Part shown: positions 3,442 through 38,183 of the stretch, in pieces
Layout: each line of letters begins with the position of its first letter
Numbering within the stretch: the stretch's first letter is position 1
Assembly: GCA_024401745.1 (NCBI GenBank)
Contig: JAKSKK010000009.1
Span: 1-62,890 of the forward strand
Reading direction: 5' to 3'
From: Bacteroidales bacterium
Lineage (GTDB): Bacteria; Bacteroidota; Bacteroidia; Bacteroidales; UBA932
Length of the DNA stretch: 62,890 bases
Position numbers and translations under genes: made by a program
The notes under the pieces: generated by a model
What the model was told of the DNA's origin: nothing
Seen by the model: only the letters and a program-made list of their open reading frames with translations
The model's database searches: none

Positions 3442-3455
3442 CGTGCACGTGCACG
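3442..3455. promoter_or_regulatory. Palindromic operator candidate (CGTGCACGTGCACG) upstream of kdgK
   Basis: A perfect 14-base palindrome with a central CpG, as expected for LacI-family operators. It is centred near -38 of the predicted kdgK promoter, overlapping its -33 region, and lies upstream of the divergent phosphatase promoter. Near-identical palindromes occur at 17063-17076, 38010-38023 and 38165-38178. Confidence 0.7.
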
Positions 3456-3473
3456 TATACGCGAGGAATTTTG

Positions 3474-3481
3474 TATCTTTG
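3474..3481 (+). promoter_or_regulatory. -7 element (TATCTTTG) of the kdg operon
   Basis: Exact fit to the Bacteroidota TAnnTTTG consensus, 21 bases before the kdgK ATG. The -33 position is occupied by the palindromic operator rather than a clear TTTG. Confidence 0.65.
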
Positions 3482-3502
3482 TTTGATTTATATTCACTGA
3501 TT

Positions 3503-4528
3503 ATGGCAAAAATCATAACATTCGGCGAAATCATGCTTCGCCTCAGCCCTGAAGGCCAGGACCGTTTCATCCAGACTGACTCCTTCCGTATCATTCCCGG
3601 CGGTGGAGAGGCAAATGTGGCAGTCAGCCTCGCGAACTATGGTCACGATGCCTTCTACGTCACGAAACTCCCTTCACACGAAATAGGTCAGATCGCAGTC
3701 AATGCACTCCGCCGCTATGGTGTGCGTACCGACTATATAGCCCGCGGCGGCAGCCGCATAGGTCTCTACTATGCCGAGACCGGTGCATCCATGCGTCCTT
3801 CGAAGGTCATCTATGACCGCGCACATTCGGCAATCGCCGAGGCCGATCCCGCTGACTTCGACTTCGATGCAATCATGGAAGGCGCCAGCTGGTTCCACTG
3901 GTCAGGCATCAGCCCCGCCATCTCCGACAAGGCTGCAGAGCTTACCCGCCTTGCGTGCGAGGCTGCGAAGCGCCATGGGGTCACCGTCAGCGTCGACCTC
4001 AACTTCCGTAAGAAGCTCTGGACCTCAGAGAAGGCCATCAGCGTGATGCGCCCCCTGATGAAGTATGTGGACGTGTGCATAGGCAACGAGGAGGACGCCG
4101 AGCTCTGCCTCGGCTTCAAGCCCGATGCCGACGTCGAAGGCGGCAACACTGACGCAGCCGGCTACGAAGGCATCTTCCGCCAGATGATGCAGGAGTTCGG
4201 CTTCAAGTATGTGGTCAGCACCCTGCGCGAGTCCTTCTCCGCCACCCACAACGGCTGGAAGGCCCTCATCTACGACGGCAAGGAGTTCTACCAGAGCAAG
4301 CGCTACGACATCGATCCCATCATCGACCGCGTAGGCGGTGGCGACTCATTCTCCGGCGGCCTCATCCATGGCATGCTGAAGTACCCCGGCGACCAGGCAG
4401 CAGCCCTCGAGTTCGCCGTCGCCGCCTCCGCCCTGAAGCACACTGTGAATGGAGATTTCAATCTCGTATCAGAGTCAGAAGTATTATCGCTAGTTGGCGG
4501 AAGTGCTAACGGTAGAGTACAGAGATAG
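3503..4528 (+). CDS. kdgK: 2-keto-3-deoxygluconate kinase (PfkB family)
   Basis: 341 residues. It phosphorylates KDG to KDPG with ATP, the step where the galacturonate and unsaturated-uronate branches of pectin breakdown have joined. PfkB signature 1 appears near the N-terminus (GGGEANVAVSLANYG) and signature 2 near the C-terminus (DRVGGGDSFSGGL), whose Asp is the catalytic base. The start is the ATG at 3503; the frame is open upstream to a GTG in the operator palindrome, but that would add MHVHVY-type residues coded by the operator and promoter, so it is rejected. It is the first gene of the operon, six bases before kdgA. Nearby kdgA, exuT and the uxa and kdu genes make KDG kinase much likelier than another sugar kinase. 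Confidence 0.93.
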   Translation: MAKIITFGEIMLRLSPEGQDRFIQTDSFRIIPGGGEANVAVSLANYGHDAFYVTKLPSHEIGQIAVNALRRYGVRTDYIARGGSRIGLYYAETGASMRPSKVIYDRAHSAIAEADPADFDFDAIMEGASWFHWSGISPAISDKAAELTRLACEAAKRHGVTVSVDLNFRKKLWTSEKAISVMRPLMKYVDVCIGNEEDAELCLGFKPDADVEGGNTDAAGYEGIFRQMMQEFGFKYVVSTLRESFSATHNGWKALIYDGKEFYQSKRYDIDPIIDRVGGGDSFSGGLIHGMLKYPGDQAAALEFAVAASALKHTVNGDFNLVSESEVLSLVGGSANGRVQR

Positions 4529-4534
4529 ATTATT

Positions 4535-5200
4535 ATGGCAAAGTATAATAAAATGCAGGTCCTCGCGACCATGAAGGAGACCGGAATGGTCCCCGTATTC
4601 TACAACGCAGACGCTGAAGTCGCCAAGAAGGTCCTCAAGGCCTGCTACGACGGTGGCGTCCGCGCATTCGAATTCACCAACAGAGGCGACTTCGCCCAGG
4701 AAGTCTTCGCTGAACTCGTGAAATATGCCAACAAGGAACTCCCCGGCATGATAGTCGGAATCGGCTCGGTCGTCGATGCCCCTACCGCAGCCATGTACCT
4801 GCAGCTCGGCGCCAACTTCGTGGTCGGCCCACTCTTCAATCCCGAGATCGCTCCCGTCTGCAACCGCCGCCTTGTGCCCTATTGCCCCGGCTGCGGAACT
4901 GTCAGTGAAGTGGGTGCCGCCCAGCAACTCGGCTGCGACCTCTGCAAGGTCTTCCCCGGCGACGTCCTCGGCCCCAAGTTCGTCAAAGGCCTCCGCGCCC
5001 CCATGCCCTGGAGCCAGATCATGGTCACCGGCGGCGTGAAGCCCGAGCGTGAGAACCTCGAAGGATGGTTCAAGGCAGGCGTGACCTGCGTCGGCATGGG
5101 CTCCAACCTCTTCCCAAAGGATGTGATCGCCGCAGGGGAGTGGAGCAAGATAAGCGAACTCTGCAGGAATGCACTTGAAATAATCAAAGAAGTAAAATAA
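4535..5200 (+). CDS. kdgA: 2-dehydro-3-deoxy-6-phosphogluconate (KDPG) aldolase
   Basis: 221 residues, the usual size of class I KDPG/KHG aldolases. It cleaves KDPG to pyruvate and glyceraldehyde-3-phosphate. The Schiff-base lysine is in [11 protein letters not shown], the catalytic Glu in FEFTNRGD, and TGGV precedes the C-terminal phosphate-binding part. The gene follows kdgK by six bases and precedes the transporter by six, so all are co-transcribed. The name eda is used for the same enzyme; I use kdgA because the context is KDG metabolism. Confidence 0.93.
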
Positions 5201-5206: not shown

Positions 5207-6652
5207 ATGAACCAGACTGCAAAAAAGACCAACTACAGATGGGTCATCTGCGCGATGCTCTTCTTCGCGACGACCATCAACTATATGGACCGCCAGGTGC
5301 TGTCCCTCACCTTCGAGGACTTCATCCGCCCCGAGTTCCACTGGACCAACAACCACTACGGTACCATCACCGGTATCTTCTCGCTGTTCTATGCAGTGGC
5401 AATGCTCTTTGCCGGAACCCTCGTCGACAAGCTCGGCACCAAGAAGGGTTACCTCTGGAGCATCGGCATCTGGTCAGTAGGCGCCTGCGCACACGCTGTC
5501 TGCGGCGTCCTCACCCAGAAGTTCATGGGTGTAGAGGGTGCTGAGGCCCTCCGCGCAATCACCGCTGCGGACGCAGTGTCCAAGATTGCAGTGGTCAGCA
5601 TGACCATGTTCATCATAGCACGATGCATCCTCGCCCTCGGTGAGGCCGGCAACTTCCCTGCAGCCATCAAGGCCACGGCGGAGTACTTCCCCAAGAAGGA
5701 CCGCGCATTCGCTACCTCCATCTTCAACGCAGGTTCCACCATCGGTGCGCTCGTGGCTCCGTTCTGCATCCCTGCACTGGCAGCGAAGTTCGGCTGGGAG
5801 GCTGCGTTCATCATCATCGGTGCCCTCGGTTTCATCTGGATGGGATTCTGGACATTCATCTACAAGAAGCCTGAGCAGAACGCCCGCGTGAATGCCGCCG
5901 AGCTCGAGTACATCGAGCAGGACAAGGCAGAGGAGGAGGCCGCAAAGGCTGCCGCTGCCGAGGCTGCAAAGAACGAGAAGAAGATCTCGCTCTGGAAGTG
6001 CTTCACTTACAAGCAGACATGGGCATTCGCATTCGGCAAGCTCCTGCCTGACGGAGTATGGTGGTTCTTCCTCTTCTGGATGCCCTCATTCCTCAAGAAC
6101 GTCTACGGCATGGCTTCAACCGAGCCCCGCTTCCAGATAGCCATCGGAGCGCTCTACCTCATCGTGATGCTCTCGATCTTCGGAGGCTACCTTCCCACAA
6201 TCTTCATCGAGAAGAAGAAAATGAATCCATACGCAGGCCGCATGCGCGCCATGCTCATCTTCGCCTTCTTCCCGCTTGTGGCTCTCGGAGCGCTGCCTCT
6301 CGCACACATCTCATACTGGATCCCCGTAGTGCTCATCGGTATTGCAGCCGCCGCCCACCAGTCATGGAGCGCCAACATCTTCTCTACCGTGGGAGACATG
6401 TTCCCCAAGAGCACCATCGCCACCGTCACAGGTATCGGCGGCATGGCAGGTGGACTCGGAAGCTTCGCAATCCAGAAGGCGGCAGGCCTTCTCTTCGACG
6501 CCAGTGAGGCCGGTGGCTGGAACATCCTCGGCTGCCAGGGCATACAGGCCGGCTACCTTATCATGTTCACCTTCTGTGGAGTGGCCTACCTGCTCAGCTG
6601 GGTCATCATGAAGAGCCTTGTGCCTGAGTACAAGCCCATCGTCATAGAGTAA
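5207..6652 (+). CDS. MFS hexuronate transporter, ExuT-like
   Basis: 481-residue major facilitator protein with about 12 predicted membrane segments. TINYMDRQVLSL in segment 1 and the ARCILALGEAGNFPAAIKATAEYF stretch in the middle of the N-terminal half are typical of the anion:cation symporter branch that includes ExuT (galacturonate/glucuronate:H+). The central cytoplasmic loop is Ala/Glu/Lys-rich (around residues 235-260). Its place between kdgA and the LacI regulator supports uptake of galacturonate or short uronates across the inner membrane, after the outer-membrane SusC/D step. The precise substrate is inferred from context. Confidence 0.88.
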   Translation: MNQTAKKTNYRWVICAMLFFATTINYMDRQVLSLTFEDFIRPEFHWTNNHYGTITGIFSLFYAVAMLFAGTLVDKLGTKKGYLWSIGIWSVGACAHAVCGVLTQKFMGVEGAEALRAITAADAVSKIAVVSMTMFIIARCILALGEAGNFPAAIKATAEYFPKKDRAFATSIFNAGSTIGALVAPFCIPALAAKFGWEAAFIIIGALGFIWMGFWTFIYKKPEQNARVNAAELEYIEQDKAEEEAAKAAAAEAAKNEKKISLWKCFTYKQTWAFAFGKLLPDGVWWFFLFWMPSFLKNVYGMASTEPRFQIAIGALYLIVMLSIFGGYLPTIFIEKKKMNPYAGRMRAMLIFAFFPLVALGALPLAHISYWIPVVLIGIAAAAHQSWSANIFSTVGDMFPKSTIATVTGIGGMAGGLGSFAIQKAAGLLFDASEAGGWNILGCQGIQAGYLIMFTFCGVAYLLSWVIMKSLVPEYKPIVIE

Positions 6653-6658: not shown

Positions 6659-7717
6659 ATGGAAGACGGGAAGATCACCATATTCGACGTTGCCGAGCGT
6701 GCGGGCGTCTCGAAGGGTACGGTAGACCGTGTCCTGCACAACCGCGGAGAAGTCTCTGCCAAGAGTGCCGCCAAGGTCCGCAAAGCCATAGAGGAGCTGG
6801 GCTATCAGCCCAACCTCTATGCTTCTCTGCTCGCAACGCGCAACGCCCATGTGATAGCCTGCCTTCTGCCGGAATTCGCCCCCGGTGAGTACTGGGAGCG
6901 CATCAACGACGGCATGGTCCTGGGCGGGAAGCAGGTGGCGTCGCTCAACGTGCTGGTCCGGGCATTCTACTATGACCAGTACGATGCCCGCAGCTTCCGC
7001 TCCGCCTGTGCCGAACTTCTGGCCTCCAAGCCTTCAGGAGTGGTCCTCCCTCCGCTTTTCATGAGCGACACCCTGAATTTCGTGCAGGAGCTGCAGAATT
7101 ACGGCATCCCGTACGTCTACATAGACAGCAAGCTCGAGGAGGATAACTATTTCGCCTATTACGGAATGCCCATGTACCGCAGCGGGCATCTCTGTGCCGC
7201 GCTCCTTACCGAGAGGGTGGCGGCCGAAGACGTTGACGAAGTGGCTGTGATCCGCATAAACCGAGACAAGAACCGTCAGTCAGACCCTACAGTGAGCCGC
7301 AGGGCCGGATTCATGGACTACATGGCCACCAACTTCCCTGAATGCCGTATAAGTCCGCTGTTCATCAATCCTTCGGATGAAGACGGCATCTATGCTGCGC
7401 TGGATGAGTTCTTCAGCGAGCATGGGGACCTGCGATATGTCGTGATGTTCAATTCACGCGTGCATCTGCTGAACCGTTACCTGGAAGACCATCCGGTTCC
7501 CGGGCGCAGGGTCATAGCCTTCGACAATCTCGACAAGAACATGCAGATGCTCAGGGACGGGCATCTGAGCATACTGATCAGCCAGCACACCGAGCACCAG
7601 TCAAGAGATGCCGTGGTCACGCTGGCGAACTATATCCTCATGAGGCAGAAGCCTGCAACGAGGGATAATTTCATGCACATGGATATCCTGACCAGATACA
7701 ATCAGGAGAATTATTAG
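6659..7717 (+). CDS. LacI-family transcriptional regulator, probable hexuronate/pectin regulator
   Basis: 352 residues. The N-terminal helix-turn-helix (residues 4-30: IFDVAERAGVSKGTVDRVLHN) and hinge region (GYQPNLYASLLATRN) precede a periplasmic-binding-protein-like sensor domain. The motif reads GTVDRVL where most relatives have TVSRVL. It sits as the fourth gene of the kdg operon, six bases after exuT, so it would autoregulate through the operator at 3442. CpG-centred palindromes of LacI type in front of kdgK, between uxaB and uxaC, and between GH28 and rpiB are its likely targets. The effector could be KDG, galacturonate or a related acid; the sequence does not show which. Repressor is the usual mode, but operator positions near -60 at GH28/rpiB leave activation open. 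Confidence 0.9.
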   Translation: MEDGKITIFDVAERAGVSKGTVDRVLHNRGEVSAKSAAKVRKAIEELGYQPNLYASLLATRNAHVIACLLPEFAPGEYWERINDGMVLGGKQVASLNVLVRAFYYDQYDARSFRSACAELLASKPSGVVLPPLFMSDTLNFVQELQNYGIPYVYIDSKLEEDNYFAYYGMPMYRSGHLCAALLTERVAAEDVDEVAVIRINRDKNRQSDPTVSRRAGFMDYMATNFPECRISPLFINPSDEDGIYAALDEFFSEHGDLRYVVMFNSRVHLLNRYLEDHPVPGRRVIAFDNLDKNMQMLRDGHLSILISQHTEHQSRDAVVTLANYILMRQKPATRDNFMHMDILTRYNQENY

Positions 7718-17062: not shown

Positions 17063-17076
17063 CGTGAACGTGCACG
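17063..17076. promoter_or_regulatory. Operator candidate (CGTGAACGTGCACG) between uxaB and uxaC
   Basis: Same palindrome as at 3442 with one mismatched base pair, again with a central CpG. It lies between the two divergent -7 elements, so one bound regulator could control both the uxaB-uxaA and uxaC-esterase transcripts. Confidence 0.65.
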
Positions 17077-24131: not shown

Positions 24132-24136
24132 CTAAT

Positions 24137-24166
24137 AAAAGACCGAAAGTTGTCTTCCGGTCTTTT
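24137..24166 (-). terminator. Terminator after the 1799-residue lipoprotein gene
   Basis: AAAAGACCG (24137-24145) pairs with CGGTCTTTT (24158-24166), with a further partial inner pairing AAG/CTT. On the minus strand the stem is followed by TTTTATTAG-type sequence. It ends 19 bases after the stop of the large lipoprotein gene. Confidence 0.7.
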
Positions 24167-24184
24167 ATCATTTTGAAACAAATC

Positions 24185-27100: not shown

Positions 27101-29584
27101 GTTCAGGAACTCCTCGGCGTTGGCTACGATGAACTCGTCACCGCCCTCGCCGCCACCTGCAGGAAGGACAGCGAATGCTGCCACGCCGGCCTCGGATTCG
27201 GTGTTGTAGATGTCGTTCTTGTCGGGGTTCGCATATACCTTCACGGTGTAGCTGCCTGCATCGAGCATGCTTGTGGTCTTGCCTTCGATGACGTACTCGG
27301 TGCCTTCATCCACAGCGTATGTCTTGCCGCTGAATACGACTGAGTAGCTGCCTGCATTCTCCACGGGCTCCCAGCTGATGGTGATGTCGGTGGCTTCACC
27401 CTGGGTGAATGACTCGGGAGCTGCCTTGGGAGCGGGAGCGGGGAGTGCACGGTTGGTCTGGCTGACGTCGTTAGACCATGCGAGCTCGCTGATGCCTACT
27501 GCACCTGATGCATATACATAAACGAGGGATTCCTCGACTATGCCGCTGATGAGGATCTTCTGAGGGCTGGTGCCGTCTGCCATTGCGGAGGCTCCGCCCT
27601 TGACTGTGAACTCGCTGCCGTCTGCCTTGGAAACGCCCACGATGACGTGTGCGGTCTCTCCACCGACGGGCTTGACTACCACTGAACCGGGCTTGTCGAC
27701 CTTGAAGCAGAGGTAACCGTCTGAAGGAAGTCCCTTCTTGTTGCATACGGTGGCGTTGCTGAAGTTCAGCACGCCGTCAGCGAATGCCACGGGGTTGTTC
27801 TCGGAGGCCACGATCATGAGGTCGTCGCGTACCATGCTCTTCTTGACGGTGCCGCTGAAGAGCTTGGCGTTGCCGAGATCCCAGGTCTTTGCTGCCGGGA
27901 TGAGATTGAGCGTGAGGTCCTCAGGCTCTTCAACGTATGCCACCCACCACTTGGGTGCGCCTACCTCCTTGCCGGAGATCTCTGAATCGGGGTTGAGGTT
28001 GAAATATCCGCCCTTTGCGTTGTAGCAGGGGTCTGCACCGAGAGTTGTAGCACCGGCCTTTGCGAAGGGGAAGGTGTCGGTGAAGAAGGTCTCCACAACG
28101 TTGTAGAACCAGTTGTTGGAAGCTGCTACTGCAAGGTCGTCGGCAGTCTTGTACTTGGTGTTGGCGCTTGCGAGAGTGGCCTTGCCCTCCATGTTGAGGA
28201 AGAGGTTGTTCTTGAAGCTGAATGAAGCGGGAACCACCTGGAGTCCGAAGATACCTGCGTTGTTCGTGTTGTCGACGAAGCAGAGGTTCATGATGGTGTT
28301 GTTCTCGAACTTCACGTCTCCCCATGTGCCGGCGTCTATACGTACGAAGGTACGCATGCCCTGGTAGATGGTATTGTTGACGATGTTCAGCTTGTCGACC
28401 TGAGAGTTGCCGCGGAAGTCGATGACGTCGCCACCGCCCGAACCGTCGGAGTTGATGTTGTTGATGTCACAGCTGTCCCAGGTGAGCTCGCCTATGGTCA
28501 TGGTCTTGCTCCATTCATAGATGAGACCCTTGCTGTAGCCGGTGAGGATACAGTTCTTGAAGATTATGCTGGAGATCTGGATGTTGTCTGCGGTACCGCC
28601 GTTGAGCTTCTGGATAGGGAATCCGTAGGTGCCTGATGCGCCGTTGAATTCCACGCCCTCGAAGTACACTGCGTCTCCGTTTGCCCAGGTGTCGGCGAAG
28701 TGCATCTCGCCCTTGATCACGGGCTTGCTGCCGTCAGCCGTCTCTTCTCCGAGAATCTTCACGCCCTTCACGAGGGTGAGGCGGGCATCGCTGTTCAGGG
28801 TGGAGAGGTCGTAGGGTGAACCGTCCATGCTGAGGGAGATGTTCGCTCCGTCGGCAACGGCCTGGCCGAGAGCTGCCACTGTGGATACCTTGGTGGTGCC
28901 GCTCATGTCGGGCATGGTCCATGCGTCCACCTCGCCGCGGCTTGCGCTCATGTAGTAGAGCACGATGTCGTATTCGGTGGATGCGGTGAGTCCTTCGATG
29001 ACTGCCTTGCCGGCAGCGATCTCATCTGCGCTGAGGGTCTTTGTGCCGATTTCCTCGGCAGCGCATCCGACAACGCCGTACTCGATGTGTGAAACGTCCT
29101 GGAAGTCAGCTACTTCTGTAGACCACGCGACGGTGATTGCATCAGCAGCCCTCTCGGCTACCTTGAGGAACAGGGGATCCTTCACGGCGAAGGTCTTGAT
29201 GGCCTTGCTGTAAACGGCCCAGTTGGATTCCTTCTTCTTGGAGCTGGTTGCCTGAACCTTGAAGTAGTAGTTGGAGTCAGCAGTGAGCTTCACGGTGAAG
29301 GGAACCTGTGAGGGCTCCAGTTCCTCGTGCATGTACTCGCTGCTCATGGCCTCGTCTGTGTAGACGACAAGGGTATAATGCTCTGCGTCCTTGGCAACAT
29401 CCCAGCTGAAGGTGACCACGTCACCCAGCGAGCTGCTGACCTTTGCGTCCAGATTCATAGGCTGCAGACAGCGGTAGAGATCCAGACCTGTGATCTCCTC
29501 CGCCATCTCATCCTGGCATCCGCTCGCACAGGCGAGCGCCAAGCCGAGCGCGAGGACTGTCAATATTTGCTTTATGAGTTTCAT
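24185..29584 (-). CDS. Giant modular surface lipoprotein with FnIII-like and four DUF4957/DUF5123-type beta-helix modules
   Basis: 1799 residues. A lipoprotein signal (LALACASGC, Cys near 23) is followed by two fibronectin-III-like domains (about 40-230), a divergent beta-helix module (about 235-545), a beta-sandwich segment resembling ancillary domains of pectinolytic proteins (about 555-705), another FnIII-like domain (about 715-805) and three similar beta-helix modules (about 815-1130, 1145-1462 and 1473-1799). Each module ends in a DPxxxAxxGDFTL...GDxRWN-like block and carries an NNTFYxxxx...KDNNGI motif, repeating about every 330 residues. It follows susC-susD where surface glycan-binding proteins are encoded, so it likely binds or cuts pectin outside the cell. 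I cannot show catalytic residues; lyase versus binding function is open. Confidence 0.85.
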   Translation of the reverse strand: MKLIKQILTVLALGLALACASGCQDEMAEEITGLDLYRCLQPMNLDAKVSSSLGDVVTFSWDVAKDAEHYTLVVYTDEAMSSEYMHEELEPSQVPFTVKLTADSNYYFKVQATSSKKKESNWAVYSKAIKTFAVKDPLFLKVAERAADAITVAWSTEVADFQDVSHIEYGVVGCAAEEIGTKTLSADEIAAGKAVIEGLTASTEYDIVLYYMSASRGEVDAWTMPDMSGTTKVSTVAALGQAVADGANISLSMDGSPYDLSTLNSDARLTLVKGVKILGEETADGSKPVIKGEMHFADTWANGDAVYFEGVEFNGASGTYGFPIQKLNGGTADNIQISSIIFKNCILTGYSKGLIYEWSKTMTIGELTWDSCDINNINSDGSGGGDVIDFRGNSQVDKLNIVNNTIYQGMRTFVRIDAGTWGDVKFENNTIMNLCFVDNTNNAGIFGLQVVPASFSFKNNLFLNMEGKATLASANTKYKTADDLAVAASNNWFYNVVETFFTDTFPFAKAGATTLGADPCYNAKGGYFNLNPDSEISGKEVGAPKWWVAYVEEPEDLTLNLIPAAKTWDLGNAKLFSGTVKKSMVRDDLMIVASENNPVAFADGVLNFSNATVCNKKGLPSDGYLCFKVDKPGSVVVKPVGGETAHVIVGVSKADGSEFTVKGGASAMADGTSPQKILISGIVEESLVYVYASGAVGISELAWSNDVSQTNRALPAPAPKAAPESFTQGEATDITISWEPVENAGSYSVVFSGKTYAVDEGTEYVIEGKTTSMLDAGSYTVKVYANPDKNDIYNTESEAGVAAFAVLPAGGGEGGDEFIVANAEEFLNALAAGKDAITIKYSDTPHAIGAVTVTAPLHLKGQTVNGKKTPITASFTVSGNIGGSVVLRNLEIAGDGTSVIVDDKTTDCAPVADTIAIYDSYLHGTKALYDNSGKAKSDVQYVIFKGNLIDGCSDGADFIDMRDGAHHNFIFAENTVANSCRTFVRTDAAHEMNYATIRNNTFYKVATNSSSKDNNGILHIRSAAGSGMLDYKVQNNLFYSIMIDEDPSNAAGFPKFKSKAGLTPNTITNNYFFNCEDREERAAYSFWAYITKEETLTGHGAILPADPCKDAANGDFTLTNGVAMNANVGDPRWNPMRGSTPSSEITVANTDELLTAISAGKSTITLAAGTYDLTSVTDNADVANGKITLVNSLNLIGQTGAKFIGGFIFKAGVEKFSANGVAFDGNSAVDNVFEIAEATASLSSVIIRNSTINAYKNRLFYMNTEGAVQSLEFVGDIISGVSGADFTSGDFIDIRKGTATAIKVQNCTFENCVRTFARIDANTVLNSMVVANNTFWNLCFVDSKDNNGIFHVRATSLNEANFIVRNNIFAGMHRAAEAPSNAAGYPKLVSTNSASNIPTFKHNYYYDLDHSEGFDFWTAGRITEEVATAGYGIVLSEDPFKNAASGDFTLTSALAASEKIGDQRWNTGRPVRPDGYFEVADLAALLTAIDAGKKDILLTGTSYDFTADATLGGKLSVVTGLNLKGETSCGLKPEVIGCFDVATAGDSFELNNLRLNGNGQNDMVVINAAADLTKLAIVNCDVTAYKNRLISGPNESKCGPVIVSGCLVSGTEAGNFTGGDFIDFRKGSVSSIKITRSTFYNGIRTFARVDAGVACGAVTVENNTFYNVLTALSKDNNGIMHVRSTSATANPRQIVVRRNIFACSHPDEAGLADAADNIKAAGFPKLVSTTSEKIAHPTISDNIFFDLKFEGDYNWWNTVTAEDAAAAGTVLEETPFSGDPTTGKFTVKTAWKGYGDLRW

Positions 29585-29608
29585 ATGCGTATGATTGTCA
29601 GGTAAATA

Positions 29609-31441
29609 CTAATATCCGTAGTCGTTTACCAGGTAGCCCTGGCTGTTGGAGATATGGTCGTTGAAGATAGGCCAGAACATGTGCTGCTCGGGATCCTGGG
29701 TGTAGATGCCGTCTATGCGCTCCTCTCCCATTCCTTCTGCGGGCTTCTTCAGATAGTCTGCATTGACGTATGCGGCCTTCTTCTCCCATTCGCCTTCAGG
29801 AGCTCCTGTCTGGTTCCTGTCAAGACCCCAGATCACGATCGACTTCTCGTCAGCTGCGAGCTGATACCAGATGTCTCCTGAGAGGAAACTGTAGTCTCCC
29901 GCAAGGTCGCGGAGGTCCTTGAGCTGTGCCTTGGTCTCGTCAAGCTTGCTCTTGAGCATGTTCCAGCGGATGAGGTCTCCCTTGCGGAGGAACTCGCCGC
30001 AGAACTCAAGTGCGCGCTCTTCCACGATTGCGTTGAAGAAGTCTTCCTTGCTCACAAGGGAAGCGACGTAGGCCTCGGCCTTGTCTTCATATCCCTTGTA
30101 TGCGCGCTCGCGGACGGCCTGCAGCCACTTCTTGGCATCTGCTGAAGGTCCGTTGAGCTCGTTCTCCATCTCGGCTGCCATGAGGAGGATGTCGGAGTAG
30201 CGCATCACCACGGGCTTCACACCGTCGTCGTTGCCTCCGGTGTAGGGGCTCTTGTCCATCCACTCGAAGCGGTATTTGCCGAAGTACCACTTGCTTATGC
30301 CTGCGGGCTCTATGTCGCCTGCCTTGGTCCACTTGTAGTTCACGCAGGTGACGTCGCGTCTGACGTCCTGGCTGTCGTACTTGAAGAACATGGTAGGAAC
30401 GGGGCCTGCGTCTCCGCCACGGCTCACACCGCCGCTGATGCCGGCACCCTCAGATGCGATTGCGAAGGTGAAGTTCCAGCGTCCGCGTCCGTCGCCGAAC
30501 GGAATCACATACAGGGTCTCGAAGCCGGGACCTGCAGTGAGGTTGTTGAAATTGTTCAGGTTGTACCACATTCCGGCGTAATCGCTCTCGAGTGATGCGC
30601 TTCCGGAAGCGATGGCTTCCTTGAGGAATCCGAGAGCCTTCGGGTAGAGAGCCTCCTTGCTGAGCTCAGGATCGCTTGAGAGCCTGATGGTTCCGAGGTC
30701 ACCGGTGCCTACCTTTCCGTCGTCAGGACGGATGGCGTAGCCTGATGCCGCAAGGGCGATTCGTGCGTAGAGTCCCTGTGCGAAAGCCTTGTTTATCCTG
30801 TCAGTGCGTGAGGTGGCAGCGGTCTTTCCGGGATAGGGAAGATATGCGAATGCCTCCTCGAGGTCGCCGAGGATCTGCTTGAAGATGACGTCGCGGTTCT
30901 CCTTGGCTGCGTAGATGGTCTCGGAGTCGAGGGAGCTGAAGCGTGCGGGAACGTCTCCCCATGCCTTGATGAGGTCGTAGTAGATCATGGCGCGCAGGGT
31001 GAGTGCCTCGCCGAGCAGATATGCCATGTTCGCGTCGGCCTCCACATTGCCGTGCTCGCGCAGGCCCTCGATCACGAGGTTGGCCCTCTCGATACCGGTG
31101 TACATCAGAACGTACGGACCGTTGGCGAGGTTCAGCTGTGCGTTGTTGGGAAGGCAGTTGTATGCGGCGATGTCGGACTTGCCGTCACCGGGCTTGTGGC
31201 TGTTGTACCATTCGATATCGGTGTTGAAACCGTACCAGGGGAGAAAACGTCCGCGGTATGAGTTCACCTCGCAGAATACCTCTGTGATACCGAATACGGT
31301 GGACTCGGCGAGGTCATAGTTTGCAAAGACCACTGAGCCGTCGAAGGTAGAGGGTGACGGCTGGTCAAGAACGGCCTCGCATGAGGGAAGTGCAACTGTG
31401 AGCGCTGCAATGCCTATTATGAGTGATAATATCTTTTTCAT
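29609..31441 (-). CDS. SusD/RagB-family surface lipoprotein of the pectin locus
   Basis: 610 residues with a lipoprotein signal (ALTVALPSC, Cys near 21). The TPR-helical SusD fold is supported by ALTLRAMIYYDLIKAWGDVP near residue 145, the family hallmark, and by the C-terminal VRERAYKGYEDKA...FFNAIVEERALEF...GDLIRWN pattern. SusD caps the SusC pore and binds oligosaccharide on the outer surface. It starts 12 bases after the susC stop and is followed by the giant lipoprotein gene. The substrate is inferred as a pectic oligosaccharide from the surrounding GH28, PL1 and GH105. Confidence 0.93.
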   Translation of the reverse strand: MKKILSLIIGIAALTVALPSCEAVLDQPSPSTFDGSVVFANYDLAESTVFGITEVFCEVNSYRGRFLPWYGFNTDIEWYNSHKPGDGKSDIAAYNCLPNNAQLNLANGPYVLMYTGIERANLVIEGLREHGNVEADANMAYLLGEALTLRAMIYYDLIKAWGDVPARFSSLDSETIYAAKENRDVIFKQILGDLEEAFAYLPYPGKTAATSRTDRINKAFAQGLYARIALAASGYAIRPDDGKVGTGDLGTIRLSSDPELSKEALYPKALGFLKEAIASGSASLESDYAGMWYNLNNFNNLTAGPGFETLYVIPFGDGRGRWNFTFAIASEGAGISGGVSRGGDAGPVPTMFFKYDSQDVRRDVTCVNYKWTKAGDIEPAGISKWYFGKYRFEWMDKSPYTGGNDDGVKPVVMRYSDILLMAAEMENELNGPSADAKKWLQAVRERAYKGYEDKAEAYVASLVSKEDFFNAIVEERALEFCGEFLRKGDLIRWNMLKSKLDETKAQLKDLRDLAGDYSFLSGDIWYQLAADEKSIVIWGLDRNQTGAPEGEWEKKAAYVNADYLKKPAEGMGEERIDGIYTQDPEQHMFWPIFNDHISNSQGYLVNDYGY

Positions 31442-31453
31442 GTTCGCCGGCTT

Positions 31454-34400
31454 TTAGAATGTTACGTTTACACCGAATACATAACCGATGCTCTTGGGAT
31501 ATGCCGAGTAGTCCACACCGGGGGTGAGAGGGGTGGCGCGGCGGGTATCCACTTCCGGATCATATCCTGAGTATTTCGTCAGGCAGAAGAGATTGGTTCC
31601 GGTCAGATAGAACCTTACCTTGCGCAGGTGCACCTTCTCGGTGACCTTTCCCGGCAGGGTGTATCCGATGGTAGCGCTCTGCAGGCGGAGGAATGATGCA
31701 TCCTCCACTGCCCAGTCGCTGAATACGGCCTGTCCTACGAAAGGAGACCACATCGTGGTGCCGCGGTTGAGCTGCTCGAGAGCCGCAGGGTCTTCGATGA
31801 GCTCGCCTGTGCTCCAGTCGACGCTGGTCCAGCGCTTGTCGACGTCCATGGCCTCCACGAGGTTGCGGTTGTAGAACTTGCGTGATGAGGTGAACTCGAC
31901 CTTGTTGGCGTTGTATACTTCGTTGCCAATCATATAGTTGAAGTTGGCGTTGAAGTCGAAGCCATAGAGATATCCGTTGATTGAGAAGCCGCCGGTGATG
32001 TCAGGTGAGGCGTTGCCTATCACCTCGCGGTCGGCAACTGTGACCTTGCCGTCTCCGTTGAGGTCCTTGAGCTTGAGCGCACCGGGACGGAGATAGCTTG
32101 AACCGATGATGTCGCCATCGTTCACGACGCCCTCGTTGAGGGTCCACTTTCCATTGCTGTAGGTGAAGTCGCTCACTTCGTAGCGGCCGTCGCAGCGGTA
32201 TCCGTACATGTTGCCGAGAGGCTCTCCGACCTTTACTACATAGTCGTCACCGATTTCGGTAGATGCCCAGTATGACTGAGCGAAGATGGTCTCGAGGCCG
32301 CCGAGGTCGGTGACCATGTTCTTGTTGTAGGCTATGTTCCCGCTGATGTTGAGTGAGAAGTCCTTCTTTGATACGACGGGAGCGTTGAGGGTGAGCTCGA
32401 CACCGCGGTTGCGGGTGGAACCGATGTTGCGGTACTGGCTGTCATAGCCGGATCCCGTGATGGGGAAGTTGATCAGAAGGTCTCTGGTGACGTTCTGATA
32501 AGCCTCGATGCTACCGCTGAGCCTGCTCTTGAAGAAGCTGAAGTCCAGACCGAAGTTATGAGTGTAGGTGGTCTCCCACTTGAGGTCCGGGTTGTTCATG
32601 ACCTTTCCGGCCATCCAGTAGCTTGAGCTCTGGCTGAGCCATGTGGTTGCGGTGGCTGAGTATTCCTTGTTGATCTGTCCTGCGGGGATGTTGTTGTTAC
32701 CTGCTGAACCGAAGCTGTAGCGCAGCTTGAGCTGGTCAACCCAGCCGGCGCCCTGCATCCAGGGTTCGTTGCTGATTGTCCAGGATGCCGCAGCTGAAGG
32801 GAAGAATCCCCAGCGGTTGGCCTTGCTGAACTTGCTGGAACCATCGGCACGGAACGTTGCGGCGAAGGAGTACCTGTGCTTGTAGTCGTAGTTCACGCGC
32901 CCGAAGAATGAAAGCAGGTTGTCGTTCGGGTTGTAGTAGTTCACGGTGTTCACCGCATCTCCGGAACTGAGGAAGTTCCATGCCATCTCTGCATCGTAGA
33001 ATGTGGGGAAGCCCTCCACCATTGCAGTCAGGGTGTTGCTGCGGGTGATGGTCATCTCCTCGCCGAGAAGGACGTTGAGGCTGTGGTCGCTGTTGCCGAT
33101 CACGTTCTCGAAGTCGTAGTTCAGGGTGTTTGTGTTGCGGTACTTGGTGCGGAATGCCTCCTTGTGCTGGTTCGCCGGCTTGTTGCGGTTGGGGTGTGCG
33201 TCGGTGTTGGCGGCTGTGTTGGCAACATAGTAGGTGGTTAGGCCGTAGAACCTGTCGTCGGTCTGGCGGTAGTCCTCGAGGCCGCCCTCGATCTTGAGCT
33301 GCAGCTTGTCAACTATGTTCCAGTTGAATGCGGCATTGGCATTCCAGGTGTTACGTATCCTTCTGGAGTCGTTGTCGGCAACTGACAGGAGGGGAGGTGC
33401 GTTGTCGCCGTAATCCTGCTCCTCGTCGACGCCCTGGATGGTGCTGCTGATGGGGATGGGTGCGTATGAAACGGCATGCTTGAGACGGCCGTTGCCCGAG
33501 GTGGTGCCGCTGTCGTTGATGCCGTTGGCACCTGCTCCGCGCACGTTGGTGCTGGAGTAGCGTACGTTGACGTCGATGAAGGTCTTCTTGGAGGTGTCGA
33601 AGCGTCCCTTGAAGTTCAGGTTGTTGCGGACGTAGTTCGATCCCGACATGATTGCCTGGTCACCCATGTGCGCGAAGCCTAGGGTCCAGTTGTAGCCCTC
33701 TCCGCTGCCAGAAACCGAGGCGTCGGTGCTGAATGTGCTGCCGGTGTTGCCGAAGACCATGCCTACCCAGTCGTTGGTGGGGAGGCTGCCGTAGAGGTCG
33801 ATGTCGGAGAAGGTTCCGAAGTAGGGCTCGTAGTTGTCGGATACGTTGTCACGTATCTGGGCAAGTTCATACTGGAACTTGACGTAGTTGTCGGCGTCCA
33901 TGGCCTTGATGGCGCCTGCGTTGGCCATCTTCTTGGTTCCGTAGTATGCATTGAAGTTAACGCTGACCTTGCGTCCCTTCTCTCCGCCCTTGGTGGTCAC
34001 GATGACGACGCCGTTGGCGCCGCGGCTACCGTAGATCGCAGTCGAGAATGCGTCCTTGAGGACGTCGATGCTGGCAATCTCGGAAGATGAGATGTCGTTG
34101 ATGGACTCTACAGGGAATCCGTCCACGATATAGAGAGGGGAGTTGTCCTGGGTGATGGAGCCGCCTCCGCGGACACGTATCTTGATGTCTGCGTCGGGGT
34201 CACCTTCAGTGGTCACAACTGATACGCCGGCCATCTTTCCGGTGAGTGCCTGTGATACTGTGGTCACGGGCTGTTCGGCAAGCTTGTCGGAATTGACTGA
34301 TGATACCGAGCCCAGGAGGTCACGCCTCTTCACTGTGGCGTAACCTACGACGACTACTTCATCCAGGAAGTTCGAGTCGTCGGAGAGAACCACGTCTACC

Positions 34401-34672
34401 ACAGCCCTGTTGTTCACGGGCTCGGTGACTGTGCTCATGCCGATCATGGAGAATTCCAGGATGTTCTTCGCGGCGTCCGGGACATTGATGGAGTAGTGTC
34501 CGTCAAGATCCGTGGATACGCCGGTACTGGTGCCCTGCACCAATACGAAGGCTCCCATCACAGGTTCCCCGTTCCCATCCTTGACTGTGCCGGTCACAGT
34601 CTGCGCCTGGAGCGCTGTCGCGCAGCCGAGCGCCAGAACAAGAGCGGCAAGTTTCAATGCGATTTTACTCAT
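31454..34672 (-). CDS. SusC/RagA-family TonB-dependent transporter of the pectin locus
   Basis: 1072 residues. Signal peptide (to LQAQ), then a carboxypeptidase-D-like domain (about 24-105, TGTVKDGNGEPVMGAFVLVQ), the SusC box DEVVVVGYATVKRRDLLGSV, a plug with YIVDGFPVESINDI and SIDVLKDAFSTAIYGSRGANG, and a large barrel ending in VNVTF. It imports oligosaccharides across the outer membrane using TonB energy, paired with the downstream susD. It follows the PL1 gene after 38 bases, so the lyase, transporter and binding proteins appear to be in one transcript starting at GH28. Confidence 0.95.
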   Translation of the reverse strand: MSKIALKLAALVLALGCATALQAQTVTGTVKDGNGEPVMGAFVLVQGTSTGVSTDLDGHYSINVPDAAKNILEFSMIGMSTVTEPVNNRAVVDVVLSDDSNFLDEVVVVGYATVKRRDLLGSVSSVNSDKLAEQPVTTVSQALTGKMAGVSVVTTEGDPDADIKIRVRGGGSITQDNSPLYIVDGFPVESINDISSSEIASIDVLKDAFSTAIYGSRGANGVVIVTTKGGEKGRKVSVNFNAYYGTKKMANAGAIKAMDADNYVKFQYELAQIRDNVSDNYEPYFGTFSDIDLYGSLPTNDWVGMVFGNTGSTFSTDASVSGSGEGYNWTLGFAHMGDQAIMSGSNYVRNNLNFKGRFDTSKKTFIDVNVRYSSTNVRGAGANGINDSGTTSGNGRLKHAVSYAPIPISSTIQGVDEEQDYGDNAPPLLSVADNDSRRIRNTWNANAAFNWNIVDKLQLKIEGGLEDYRQTDDRFYGLTTYYVANTAANTDAHPNRNKPANQHKEAFRTKYRNTNTLNYDFENVIGNSDHSLNVLLGEEMTITRSNTLTAMVEGFPTFYDAEMAWNFLSSGDAVNTVNYYNPNDNLLSFFGRVNYDYKHRYSFAATFRADGSSKFSKANRWGFFPSAAASWTISNEPWMQGAGWVDQLKLRYSFGSAGNNNIPAGQINKEYSATATTWLSQSSSYWMAGKVMNNPDLKWETTYTHNFGLDFSFFKSRLSGSIEAYQNVTRDLLINFPITGSGYDSQYRNIGSTRNRGVELTLNAPVVSKKDFSLNISGNIAYNKNMVTDLGGLETIFAQSYWASTEIGDDYVVKVGEPLGNMYGYRCDGRYEVSDFTYSNGKWTLNEGVVNDGDIIGSSYLRPGALKLKDLNGDGKVTVADREVIGNASPDITGGFSINGYLYGFDFNANFNYMIGNEVYNANKVEFTSSRKFYNRNLVEAMDVDKRWTSVDWSTGELIEDPAALEQLNRGTTMWSPFVGQAVFSDWAVEDASFLRLQSATIGYTLPGKVTEKVHLRKVRFYLTGTNLFCLTKYSGYDPEVDTRRATPLTPGVDYSAYPKSIGYVFGVNVTF

Positions 34673-34710: not shown

Positions 34711-36564
34711 CTATTTGATTTCCGTATATTGTCCGTTGGCGTTCTGACCCTTCACTATGTCCTTCACCAGATAGTGCAGATACATCTCGAGGTTGGTATA
34801 CCTGCCGTCGGGGTCGATCGTGCTCAGGGCGGCGTCGGTGGAGTCCTTGCCGTCAAGCCCGAACAGGGTCTCATACCAGTCGGGGATGCCGTCGAGGTCA
34901 GTGTCGGTGACTATGGCCAGCTGCTCGTCGCTTGCCTTGTATGCGGGCCAGCCGCCAACGTCCTCCTGGGTGTCGATTATACCCTTCGTGCCTCCCTTGC
35001 TGCCCTTGTAGGTGTAACTGCCTTCCCTGGTCTCCTTGGCCAGGCGGGTGTCTATCCTGTCTCTTGCGAGCGACGCTCCCGCGTATGTGAGAACGCTTTC
35101 CATTGCGTCCTCCGCATTGTGCAGGGTGCCCTTGTGGCTTCCCATGAAACTATCGGAGCGCACCTTGTCCTTCTGGTTCTTGTCGTCAGGCTCGACGCCC
35201 TCCCAGTTGTCTGCGGTCACCTTGTCTGAGCCGTACATGAAGTTGCCGCTGACGTAGAACAGGCCCGGAGTGACGCTGTACTGGTCGTCGGGGTTGCAGT
35301 TGCTGCACTTGGTCGTCGGGTTGACTATGCGGGCCCTGTTGCTGCTGCCTTCGCCCGGGCGGTACCAGTTGTTGACGATGTTTATCTGCCTTGGATTGCA
35401 TCCGGGGCGGGATTCGCCGCCGTAGCCGGAATTGCCTCCCCAGTTGTATATCACGTTGTTGATGAAGTGGACGGGGCCTCTTGCAGTGCAGAGGTAGTCA
35501 TGGTCGAAGCGGGGGTTGCGGCTGTCGTGATGGATGAGCAGGTTGTGGTGGAACGATGCGTTGTTTCCGCCCCACAGTCCGCCGTAGCCGTGCGTGCCCT
35601 TGCCGTGTACCGACGTCCTGAGGCTCTCCGAGATTATGCAGTACTGCAGGGTGAAGTTCTCGTTGCCGTAGAATGACGCGCACTCGTCGGTGCTCCAGGA
35701 TACCGAGCAGTGGTCGATGATGATGTCGCTGCACCAGCTGCCGTCCTTATGGCTGGCCGAGAGGGCGTCGTCCTCGGCTCCGGTCTCGTCTCCCATGCGG
35801 CAGCGGATGAACCTGACTATCACGTTCGATGCGTTTATCTGCAGGGGGTAGTTCTTCAGGCAGATTCCGTCGCCAGGCGCAGTCTGGCCCGCGATGGTGA
35901 GGTCTCCGTTCGAGATCTTGAGGGTGGATTTGAGCTCGATTATGCCGGCCACGTCGAATACGACTGTGCGCGCTCCTTTCTGGCTGACCGCCCATCGCAG
36001 GGTGCCCTCTTCGCTGCCGTCCTTTATGGATGTGACGTGAAGCACCTTGCCTCCGCGTCCTCCGGTTGCGTACATTCCGCCCCCTTCAGCTCCGGGGAAG
36101 GCTCTGGCAGTGCCGTCTTCCTCAGCGGCGGGAATCTGCATTGCGGAGTACACGTCGGGGATGGGGTCGGGGCCGGGAACTGGTTCGGGAATGTCGCCAT
36201 TCGCCGTTACGACTTCGACTCTGGCGCTCCATGGCGATGTTTCGCTGCCCGCTACGGTGGCAACCTCGAATTTGTATGATGTTTCGCTCTCGAGATTGTT
36301 GAACGATACTGACGTGCCGACTACGTTTCCGTTTCGGTCGAGCGTGTTCCCCTTGAGCAGACGGTAATTGTAGCTGTCGGCTCCGGAGACGGCATCCCAT
36401 GCGAACGCCAGGGTATTATTGGTGCAGAATTCCACGTGGACATCGGTGGGAGCGATAGGCTTCACGGGCTTGTCATCGGGTTCCTTGCTGCCGGAAGTGC
36501 CTCCGCAGGCGAAAAGGCCCGCGAACGCTATTAAAAGGACAAGTATGTTGGCTTTTATCTTCAT
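34711..36564 (-). CDS. Pectate lyase (PL1-like) lipoprotein with an N-terminal FnIII-like domain
   Basis: 617 residues. A lipoprotein signal (IAFAGLFAC, Cys near 20) is followed by an FnIII-like domain (about 38-120, PTDVHVEFCTNNTLAFAWDA) and a Pro-rich linker. The parallel beta-helix catalytic part starts near 153 (ARAFPGAEGGGMYATGG) and continues with GTLRWAVSQKGARTVVFDVA, then IIIDHCSVSWSTDE and RNPRFDHDY, which carry the Ca-binding acids and likely catalytic Arg of PL1-type pectate lyases. It cleaves homogalacturonan by beta-elimination, giving the unsaturated ends that GH105 and KduI/KduD process. Its start overlaps the GH28 stop by four bases (ATGA), so the two are translationally coupled. 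The subfamily cannot be fixed by eye. Confidence 0.88.
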   Translation of the reverse strand: MKIKANILVLLIAFAGLFACGGTSGSKEPDDKPVKPIAPTDVHVEFCTNNTLAFAWDAVSGADSYNYRLLKGNTLDRNGNVVGTSVSFNNLESETSYKFEVATVAGSETSPWSARVEVVTANGDIPEPVPGPDPIPDVYSAMQIPAAEEDGTARAFPGAEGGGMYATGGRGGKVLHVTSIKDGSEEGTLRWAVSQKGARTVVFDVAGIIELKSTLKISNGDLTIAGQTAPGDGICLKNYPLQINASNVIVRFIRCRMGDETGAEDDALSASHKDGSWCSDIIIDHCSVSWSTDECASFYGNENFTLQYCIISESLRTSVHGKGTHGYGGLWGGNNASFHHNLLIHHDSRNPRFDHDYLCTARGPVHFINNVIYNWGGNSGYGGESRPGCNPRQINIVNNWYRPGEGSSNRARIVNPTTKCSNCNPDDQYSVTPGLFYVSGNFMYGSDKVTADNWEGVEPDDKNQKDKVRSDSFMGSHKGTLHNAEDAMESVLTYAGASLARDRIDTRLAKETREGSYTYKGSKGGTKGIIDTQEDVGGWPAYKASDEQLAIVTDTDLDGIPDWYETLFGLDGKDSTDAALSTIDPDGRYTNLEMYLHYLVKDIVKGQNANGQYTEIK

Positions 36565-38081
36565 TCCTGGATGATGTTTGAGACCTTGTATGTCTTGAGC
36601 GGCTCGCCGTCGGCGGCGTTGACGGTCACGCCGCGCAGCGATACATCCTCGCTGTAGCGCAGCTCTATGCCTCTTGACGCGCTGATGGTGCAGTCTTCTA
36701 TGCTGATTCCCTTGACGGGCATTTCGGGCAGGCCGTTGAAGTACATCGCCCTGTCAGCGCCGCTGCAGGTGACCGAACTGATGTGGATGTCGCGGAAGGC
36801 CGGCGTGGTCTCGTCGACGGGGAGGGCCGGTTCGTCAGCGGGAGCGCCGTCCTCTCTTGATTCCGTTGCCGACTTGCCACCGTAGAAAAGATCAAAGAGC
36901 AAGCAGTCGGTCGCTATATCCGTCATACGGATGTTGTCGATCCATATTCCGGAAACCACACCACCGCGCCCGCGCTTGCTCTTGAATCTTAAACCCACGT
37001 CAGTGCCGAGGAAACGGCAGTTGCTGACCTTGATGTCCTTCACGCCACCACTCATCTCGGAGCCTACCACAAAGCCGCCGTGACCGTGGAATACCGTACA
37101 TCCGTCAACGATTATCCGGCTGCACGGAACACCGCGCCGCCTGCCGTCCTCGTCCTTGCCGCTTTTTATGCATATACCGTCGTCCCCACAGTCGAAACTG
37201 CTGTTCACGAGCAGGACGCCGGTGCATGAATCTATGTCTATGCCATCCCCGTTCTGGGAATATTCGGGATTGCGTACCGTGATTCCGTCCACAATCACGT
37301 TCCTGCACAGCAGGGGATGTATGTTCCAGGCCGGAGAGTTCTGGAAGACGCAGTCCTTGAGCAGGACGTTCTCGCAGTTTCTCAGGCTTACCATGACGGG
37401 CCTCAGGAAGCTCTTGATGAGCGAGTCAGGCAGGGATGCGTCCGGCACGTTCATATTGGCGTTCTTTTCGGCGAGGATGAATCCTTCGTCAGGGTACCAG
37501 GTCTTGCCGTCTTCACTCAGGACTCCTCCGCTTGCCAGCTTGGCCTTCCACTGGGCGGAATTCATCTTGCTCTTCTTCACGGCTCGCCAGTCCTGCCCGC
37601 TGCCGTCAATGACGCCGCCTCCGGTGATGGATATGTCATGTGCGTCCTGGGCGAAGAGGGGAGACTCGCAGCGTCTTGTCTCCAGACCTTCGAACGAGGT
37701 GTGTATCACGGGGTAAAGGTTCCTCGAGGGGTCGAAGACGATGACGGCGCCACGCTCCACGTGCAGGTCCATGTTGCTCCTGAGCTCTATGGGGCCGGTG
37801 CGCCAGATTCCTGCGGGAACCACCAGCCTTCCGCCGCCAAGCGCTTCGAGGTGGGCGACGGCATCGGCAAATGCGTTGGTATTCAGAGTGATACCATCGC
37901 CGATTCCTCCGAAGTCTTCTATGCTGACTGTTCTGGACGGTATTTCAGGAAGGCCGATCCTGTCCATTTCAAATGGAAGCTTCCGGTAATATTGCCCATA
38001 ATTATCTTTCGTGCTCGTGCACGAAAGGAGACACGGTACTGATAATAAAACAGTTAGGAATATTGTGGCTAGCTTTCTCAT
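36561..38081 (-). CDS. GH28 polygalacturonase-type lipoprotein
   Basis: 506 residues from the ATG at 38081; a TTG two codons upstream is possible but less likely. The lipoprotein signal ends VPCLLSC|TSTK. The beta-helix carries GH28 motifs in order: NGDGIDID (about 255), CGDDG, the GHGG His and the RFKSKRGRGG Arg/Lys. It hydrolyses galacturonic-acid linkages in pectin, yielding galacturonate for UxaC. It is the first gene of the pectin operon and overlaps the PL1 start by four bases. Oddity: codons 19-25 (LSCTSTK) contain a near-perfect copy of the operator palindrome seen in the regulatory regions. Endo versus exo action and exact linkage are not visible. Confidence 0.92.
   Translation of the reverse strand: MRKLATIFLTVLLSVPCLLSCTSTKDNYGQYYRKLPFEMDRIGLPEIPSRTVSIEDFGGIGDGITLNTNAFADAVAHLEALGGGRLVVPAGIWRTGPIELRSNMDLHVERGAVIVFDPSRNLYPVIHTSFEGLETRRCESPLFAQDAHDISITGGGVIDGSGQDWRAVKKSKMNSAQWKAKLASGGVLSEDGKTWYPDEGFILAEKNANMNVPDASLPDSLIKSFLRPVMVSLRNCENVLLKDCVFQNSPAWNIHPLLCRNVIVDGITVRNPEYSQNGDGIDIDSCTGVLLVNSSFDCGDDGICIKSGKDEDGRRRGVPCSRIIVDGCTVFHGHGGFVVGSEMSGGVKDIKVSNCRFLGTDVGLRFKSKRGRGGVVSGIWIDNIRMTDIATDCLLFDLFYGGKSATESREDGAPADEPALPVDETTPAFRDIHISSVTCSGADRAMYFNGLPEMPVKGISIEDCTISASRGIELRYSEDVSLRGVTVNAADGEPLKTYKVSNIIQE
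38007..38026. promoter_or_regulatory. Intragenic operator candidate in the GH28 signal-peptide codons
   Basis: A 20-base palindrome, TTTCGTGCTCGTGCACGAAA, with one mismatched pair; the core (38010-38023) matches the other operators. It lies about 90 bases into the predicted GH28 transcript and 155 bases from the main site at 38160-38183, similar in concept to the auxiliary intragenic operator of lac. It could also be a coincidence of the LSCTSTK codons. Confidence 0.5.
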
Positions 38082-38115
38082 TTGCAAATCCGGCCTATTT
38101 CAGGCTTGTAACGAA

Positions 38116-38123
38116 CAAATATA
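38116..38123 (-). promoter_or_regulatory. -7 element (TATATTTG) of the pectin operon (GH28 onward)
   Basis: TAnnTTTG match on the minus strand, 34 bases before the GH28 ATG. The main palindrome is centred about 60 bases upstream of the predicted start. Confidence 0.6.
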
Positions 38124-38159
38124 ATAAATAATTCATTATATGACGCCTATTCGGCTAAA

Positions 38160-38183
38160 ATTTTCGTGCACGTGCACGAAAAT
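38160..38183. promoter_or_regulatory. Main operator candidate between GH28 and rpiB: 24-base perfect palindrome
   Basis: The core CGTGCACGTGCACG (38165-38178) is extended by ATTTT on the left and AAAAT on the right, making all 24 bases perfectly palindromic about a central CpG. It is the best copy of the four. It lies about midway between the divergent -7 elements (38116-38123 and 38216-38223), near -60 of each, a position more typical of activation or looping than of simple blocking. Confidence 0.72.

Follow-up and report, generated by a model that had tools for sequence, protein, structure and literature searches.

A CG-centred palindrome as predicted operator of a LacI-family regulator for pectin and galacturonate genes in a Bacteroidales bacterium

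LacI-family regulators of uronate use, namely KdgR, UxaR, UxuR and UxmR, are known in Bacteroides (PMC3878776), where the regulons of KdgR (BT0487) and UxaR (BT0824) have been reconstructed computationally (Ravcheev et al., 2013; PMC3878776). According to that study, the KdgR regulon includes a restricted set of genes whose products are periplasmic or extracellular, and rhamnogalacturonan SusCD loci are assigned to hybrid two-component system (HTCS) regulators. While LacI uronate regulons in Bacteroides are thus already known, what would appear to be new in the locus described here is the motif, a SusCD pectin locus under putative direct LacI control and, in sister species, an apparent exchange of operators. 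This locus lies in a 62,890-nucleotide stretch of DNA from a Bacteroidales bacterium (assembly GCA_024401745.1, contig JAKSKK010000009.1, positions 1 to 62,890), hereafter the window, which contains copies of the palindrome CGTGCACGTGCACG near pectin and galacturonate genes and a gene for a LacI-family protein at 6659-7717 (plus strand). A preliminary description of this DNA had proposed that this protein binds all the copies, and had noted that LacI-family proteins recognise even palindromes with a central CG, which agrees with the rule given for the family in a work on 1173 transcription factors (PMC4052901). A literature search limited to one collection found no earlier account of an operator swap or of a fuller regulon, and a text search with the 14-mer returned unrelated eukaryotic papers only.

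With a probability of roughly 0.85, we consider the palindrome to be the operator of the 6659-7717 protein, predicted to govern the kdg, uxaB-uxaA, uxaC-pectinesterase and GH28 units from four sites, most likely as a repressor. The sites are assigned to this protein because it is the sole LacI found, because the motif lies upstream of the gene in 70 of 80 relatives and because site and regulator co-occur. All four sites reported earlier are found in the window, i.e., exact copies of CGTGCACGTGCACG at 3442-3455 and 38165-38178, and one-mismatch copies at 17063-17076 (CGTGAACGTGCACG) and 38010-38023 (CGTGCTCGTGCACG). Each is an even palindrome with a central CG, the extended form being TTTCCGTGCACGTGCACGGAAA; the 38165 site is embedded in a perfect 24-bp palindrome and the 38010 site in a 22-bp palindrome flawed at a single pair. 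At up to three mismatches the window holds 14 matches, a number reached by none of 100 shuffles (mean 4.53, maximum 11).

Predicted operator 1 (3442-3455; 20.6 bits with the matrix described below) precedes the kdgK-kdgA-MFS-lacI operon, its centre 25.5 bp upstream of the promoter-like element TATCTTTG (3474), and faces the divergent cpsB (offset 40.5 bp). Predicted operator 2 (17063-17076; 28.2 bits) sits between uxaC (TAAATTTG at 17097, offset 27.5 bp) and uxaB (TAAATTTG on the minus strand at 17052, offset 17.5 bp), while predicted operator 4 (38165-38178; 30.9 bits) belongs to the GH28 promoter (TATATTTG on the minus strand at 38123, offset 48.5 bp) and faces the divergent rpiB (offset 44.5 bp). 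Possible operator 3 (38010-38023; 22.9 bits) lies 155 bp from operator 4, on the opposite side of the GH28 promoter, within the lipobox codons L-S-C-T-S-T-K; it is coding because GH28 reads from the ATG at 38081. The earlier picture of three sites in divergent intergenic regions next to TAnnTTTG promoters holds, the fourth being intragenic. A second, weaker copy at 3448-3461 (CGTGCACGTATACG) overlaps the kdgK operator, the two together spanning 3442-3461.

The motif was learned from the upstream regions of regulator relatives. Of 61 genomes searched with the regulator protein, 37 gave a match, in many cases no more than a distant LacI protein, and a scan of a genome collection left 80 loci of 585 confirmed stretches, many from Cryptobacteroides or Bacteroidales metagenome-assembled genomes and none titled as a Bacteroides species. 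All 80 loci were used for 14-mer ranking, matrix training and site counts in loci; since the genomes (G) and loci (L) are partly the same assemblies (e.g., L061 and L095), counts from the two sets are not additive. When the 300-bp upstream regions of the 80 regulator genes were searched for each of the 4096 CG-centred 14-mer palindromes, with up to two mismatches allowed, CGTGCACGTGCACG was the best, with 33/80 (median 0, 99th percentile 2), and the pattern CGTNNNCGNNNACG was present upstream of 70/80 (shuffled mean 0.29, maximum 2). A 22-bp matrix derived from 70 distinct sites, the window excluded, with the CGT-CG-ACG positions fixed by the pattern and other positions and flanks free, gives the four sites the highest scores in the window (30.9, 28.2, 22.9 and 20.6 bits). 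The best score in 20 shuffled windows is 12.9 bits and the fifth-best in the window is 15.8 bits (58804), inside the open reading frame (ORF) 57482-58933, which upholds the earlier observation that no site precedes the second SusC/SusD pair, the division cluster or the capsule genes.

Across the 80 loci, sites of at least 17 bits lie upstream of lacI in 68/80 cases, kdgK in 36/46, GH28 in 25/27, uxaC in 8/12, uxaB in 6/11 and MFS in 3/36, and none was found upstream of kdgA (0/40), the pectinesterase gene (0/20), susC1 (0/18), fn3 (0/19), uxaA (0/11) or kduD (0/7), with matches below 30% identity, matches starting after query residue 40 and genes with too little upstream sequence excluded from these counts. 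That operon-internal genes (kdgA, pectinesterase, susC1) have no site counts in favour of operators. The kdgK and GH28 sites are not independent of the training because most of them lie in the regulator's own upstream region; independent of it are those at uxaC/uxaB in L082, L083, L086, L110, L130 and L140, and at uxaC in L152. In a regulator tree of the window protein and those of 79 loci (L157 was excluded because of an early break in its reading frame), the 25 GH28-linked regulators form one clade (98/93), and the window protein belongs to a supported set of 15 rows with seven kdgK-linked and seven unclassified proteins (98/90).

Operator forms vary among these relatives. An asymmetric form, CCGTGCACGGTAACGG, which keeps the outer CCGT/ACGG and the central CG with varying inner bases, recurs in GH28-linked and kdgK-linked relatives (L061:10833, L062:10673, L064:2677 and many of L088-L159), and more distant regulator relatives (L069:9995, L144, L146, L147, L161) have AGTGCACGTGCACT, GGTGCACGTGCACC or TGTGCACGCGCACA instead. 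The proteins of L069, L144, L146 and L147 (L069 and L146 are apparently one assembly) read SRGTVDRV[LI]Y where the window protein reads SKGTVDRVLH, a difference that might represent a specificity code.

Strong sites are nearly confined to pectin and uronate genes. In the window's own genome, an assembly that is 72% complete, the 14-mer is found at up to two mismatches in 22 places, exactly as many as for the reversed control. Six of these are in the window and 15 of the 16 others lie within ORFs of at least 100 aa, the remaining one (C3:3689; 5.0 bits) being only in frames of 62-72 codons. The broader pattern CGTKNNCGNNMACG occurs in 29 places (21 for the reversed control), and all 23 outside the window fall within ORFs of 100 aa or longer, none of them scoring above 16.8 bits, as opposed to 20.6-30.9 bits for the window sites; no site of at least 17 bits was found in the 222 kb of stretches scored outside the window. 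On the question whether the motif is equally common at unrelated genes, the raw count thus gives no distinction, but quality and location set the window sites apart, and it is these properties, not number, that carry the signal. The same holds for G022, a 95%-complete relative with a regulator 66% identical to that of the window, in which the pattern is found at 13 places, fewer than for the reversed control (18), and exceeds 17 bits only at three, on three contigs, in the regulator/kdgK (26.8 bits), uxaC (30.8 bits) and GH28 (22.8 bits) regions. The other ten are in ORFs at no more than 15.0 bits; the regulator/kdgK site is itself flagged as intra-ORF because an open frame reaches back beyond the point where the regulator alignment begins. 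Leyella lascolaii has 32 pattern places (24 for the reversed control), four of them above 17 bits, including sites of 21.3 and 24.1 bits between a uxaC-kdgK-kdgA-MFS group and the regulator.

Site and regulator also co-occur. The rows counted were 28 of 43 for GH28 (13 rows lack the locus, and the partial or weak L206 and L207 were dropped), 30 of 46 for uxaC and 30 of 55 for rpiB. A site precedes GH28 in 8/9 rows in which the regulator is at least 50% identical (window included), compared with 0/19 others (Fisher 2.9e-6, with the 50% line drawn after the data were seen), and in 8/12 compared with 0/16 at 35% identity or more (p 1.6e-4); some genomes enter these statistics with two rows, and the species share ancestry. 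The coupling of pectin genes by one regulator, as put forward in the preliminary description, is supported by the genome scans, the motif upstream of the regulator's relatives, the sole LacI gene and this co-occurrence, and it shrinks at its edges, since rpiB and cpsB are probably bystanders of divergent promoters. As a candidate regulon member rpiB is disfavoured, a site being found upstream in 1/30 rows, the window only, and in 0/29 relatives, eight of which encode a regulator with 50% identity or more (G002, G003, G005, G007, G012, G022, G027, G034); siteless rpiB genes in G008, G015 and G036, divergent from GH28 as in the window, are uninformative because the regulator is missing there. 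The standing of uxaC as a target is mixed, with sites in the window, G012 and G022, and many relatives in which uxaC has no site of its own.

The sites are positioned at promoter-like sequences. In relatives, 24.5-27.5 bp separate the site centre from a downstream TAnnTTTG in 32 of 38 listed kdgK pairs and 24 of 30 listed GH28 pairs, and 17.5-18.5 bp, which puts the centre inside the core promoter, in six of seven listed uxaB pairs and 13 regulator-gene pairs, with a further cluster at 47.5-50.5 bp (pairs were counted within 10-60 bp, and spacing was tallied without a chance control). Centres at 17-28 bp would place the regulator over the -33 to -7 region, in keeping with repression. We infer a scheme of binding, repression and release in which the regulator, most likely a dimeric repressor seated over the -33 to -7 promoter region, would act through four sites in three control regions on four transcription units: kdgK-kdgA-MFS-lacI, uxaB-uxaA, uxaC-pectinesterase and the ~18-kb SusCD pectin locus running from GH28 to DUF4861. 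Release would come from an intracellular uronate intermediate, 2-keto-3-deoxygluconate (KDG) or a relative, KDG being guessed because the regulator is encoded in the kdgK operon. Depolymerisation, uptake and catabolism would then rise together, and the regulator would be autoregulated. At GH28, where two sites flank the promoter, a repression loop may form.

Several results weigh against this scheme. In addition to an identity line chosen with the data in view, GH28 is divergent from the regulator gene in five of the rows behind the co-occurrence (G002, G003, G005, G027, G034), so that site and regulator share one region there; when these rows are removed, the contrast is 3/4 (G000, G012 and G022 with a site, G007 without) to 0/19 (p 0.002). 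G007 has a close regulator, yet no site was found before its GH28. A site directly upstream of uxaC is seen in 3/30 rows only (G000, G012, G022), and none was found there in seven genomes whose regulator is 41-52% identical; in two of these, G016 and G035, uxaC is a more distal gene of an operon that begins after a lacI or kduD upstream region bearing sites of the operator or TGTGCAC-type form. The raw count in the window's genome is not in excess, that genome is incomplete, and the matrix was applied outside the window to pattern matches and the 222 kb of stretches. Leyella lascolaii has an 18.2-bit site inside an ORF and a 29.4-bit site (L300, 1013) about 125 bp upstream of L300:3-893 (minus strand), probably a gene for a Gfo/Idh-type oxidoreductase (named by eye) and possibly a further regulon member. 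Two of the 98 sites of at least 17 bits in the 80 loci are in ORFs away from the listed genes (L105:1762, 18.1 bits, ORF of 264 aa; L160:5226, 20.8 bits, ORF of 1213 aa). Finally, at 48.5 bp from the -7 box, the GH28 operator of the window is too far away for simple occlusion, and strict spacing fits an activator as well.

How far do these points favour other explanations? That the palindromes arose by chance, or are structural repeats that no regulator binds, as the equality with the reversed control at up to two mismatches might suggest, is hardly credible and already disfavoured in view of the conservation, ranking and co-occurrence. It is also very improbable that another regulator, encoded in the part of the genome missing from the assembly, binds the sites, because the motif lies upstream of relatives of the lacI gene itself (70/80) and tracks the presence of the 6659-7717 type, while the second LacI type traced in the genus is accompanied by another palindrome. 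A more serious contender, albeit still an unlikely one, keeps the same regulator and operator but makes the protein an activator, or both, which would recruit polymerase from a fixed distance at promoters without a good -33 element. It would account for the ~26 bp spacing to TAnnTTTG at most site-bearing kdgK and GH28 promoters and some of uxaC and MFS, for the cluster at 47.5-50.5 bp and for a window GH28 operator upstream of the core promoter. Against this, LacI-family proteins mostly act as repressors, the uxaB (6/7) and 13 regulator-gene pairs are centred inside the core promoter, and the spacing may stem from shared ancestry. For the 38010-38023 site alone, a coincidence of lipobox codons is the less probable reading but has substance, as the L-S-C-T-S-T-K codons generate the palindrome, no site was found at the equivalent place in the seven relatives checked, and two strong matches in relatives (L105, L160) are likewise inside ORFs. 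Its 22.9 bits and flanks that fit the motif (CTTTCG...CGAAAG), compared with a best score of 12.9 bits in 20 shuffled windows, speak for an operator.

A variation on the predicted regulator-operator pair comes from relatives without a close homologue of the 6659-7717 protein (regulator A). Before GH28, five rows from four such genomes (G004, G011, G019 twice, G020) have TRCAAACGTTTGYA at zero or one mismatch, and all four encode a second LacI protein (regulator B), 61-71% identical to the LacI in the kdgK operon of G003, the frame in G020 holding one stop. Of the 28 GH28 upstream regions, eight are thus of the CGTGCACGTGCACG type (in each case with a regulator A that is at least 50% identical), five have TRCAAACGTTTGYA, 15 have neither and none has both. 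A B-type word is also found at uxaC in 2/30 rows, G020 and G017; no B regulator was found in G017 at E 1e-50, which speaks against strict pairing. Both regulators are present in G003, G014, G022 and G034. In G003 the pathway seems to be split between A, which would take the GH28 locus, and B, which would take kduD and the kdgK operon that encodes it, and in the window species everything appears to be run through A. On this comparison of sequences, we lean towards the view that the same pectin locus has been passed between two LacI regulators by operator replacement, within one genus. In sister species, TRCAAACGTTTGYA is positioned before GH28, uxaC or kduD at L061:17606-17619, L061:18880-18893, L195:1407, L198:1425, L199:3009 and L221:2979, and a second LacI gene is at L061:16571-17572 (minus strand).

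The genes of the window bear names of differing firmness. The regulator has a LacI helix-turn-helix domain at residues 7-52 (PF00356, 61.8 bits; cut-off 27) and a Peripla_BP_4 domain at residues 70-326 (PF13407, 80 bits; cut-off 35.1), as is proper to the LacI/GalR family, and it is the one protein with a LacI-family helix-turn-helix found in the 72% complete assembly. Of the six proteins in an NCBIfam scan, kdgA and uxaB alone were over a cut-off. In the regulator's own operon, on the plus strand, kdgK (3503-4528), a PfkB-family kinase under every NCBIfam cut-off, is named KDG kinase from family and context, kdgA (4535-5200) is a KDPG/KHG aldolase (NF005499 over cut-off), and an MFS transporter (5207-6652; also under every cut-off) is probably one of sugar acid. 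Around operator 2 are uxaB (15577-17016, minus strand), a tagaturonate reductase (NF002969 over cut-off), uxaA (13852-15576, minus strand) of the galactarate/altronate dehydratase family, the uronate isomerase gene uxaC (17143-18558, plus strand) and a pectinesterase with a GDSL esterase domain (18560-20263, plus strand). The pectin locus, all on the minus strand, comprises GH28, of the polygalacturonase family with a lipoprotein signal (36561-38081), an fn3-domain protein (34711-36564), a 1799-aa ORF with SusD and SusC (24185-34672), and GH88, kduD, kduI and DUF4861 (20264-24273), which would end the GH28 operon; the 1799-aa ORF is at 24185-29584, between SusD and GH88. Short intergenic gaps suggest the four transcription units, starting at three control regions. 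Reg_prop (PF07494), which would mark an HTCS-controlled polysaccharide utilisation locus, was found in no protein of the window, and in only one ORF of its genome, on contig C31.

These findings provide an operator and regulator candidate for pectin use in Cryptobacteroides-like bacteria and point to a SusCD locus that would be under the direct control of a cytoplasmic LacI protein instead of a membrane HTCS, while the natural regulator swap, if true, would be useful for studying regulon rewiring. At the level of a single promoter, a close parallel is the E. coli gal operon, in which GalR operators lie at about -60 and inside galE, with the promoter between them. With 155 bp between its sites, the promoter inside this interval and the second site in the first gene, the GH28 pair resembles this arrangement, the loop being a prediction here; a difference is that the intragenic GH28 site was not found in the seven relatives. 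At the level of the regulon, the window regulator is, like KdgR and UxaR of Bacteroides, a LacI-family protein of Bacteroidales linked to glucuronate/galacturonate genes, here by site prediction at kdgK, uxaB/uxaC and GH28. Whereas rhamnogalacturonan SusCD loci are assigned to HTCS regulators in the published reconstruction, it appears to control a SusCD pectin locus together with catabolism, a comparison made by regulon content. In this it is joined by ManR and AraR of B. thetaiotaomicron, which are likewise regulators of cytoplasmic sugar use that also control a SusC/SusD locus (PMC3878776), but which, unlike the window regulator, are of the GntR and NrtR families and serve for mannose and arabinose (PMC3878776, Table 2).

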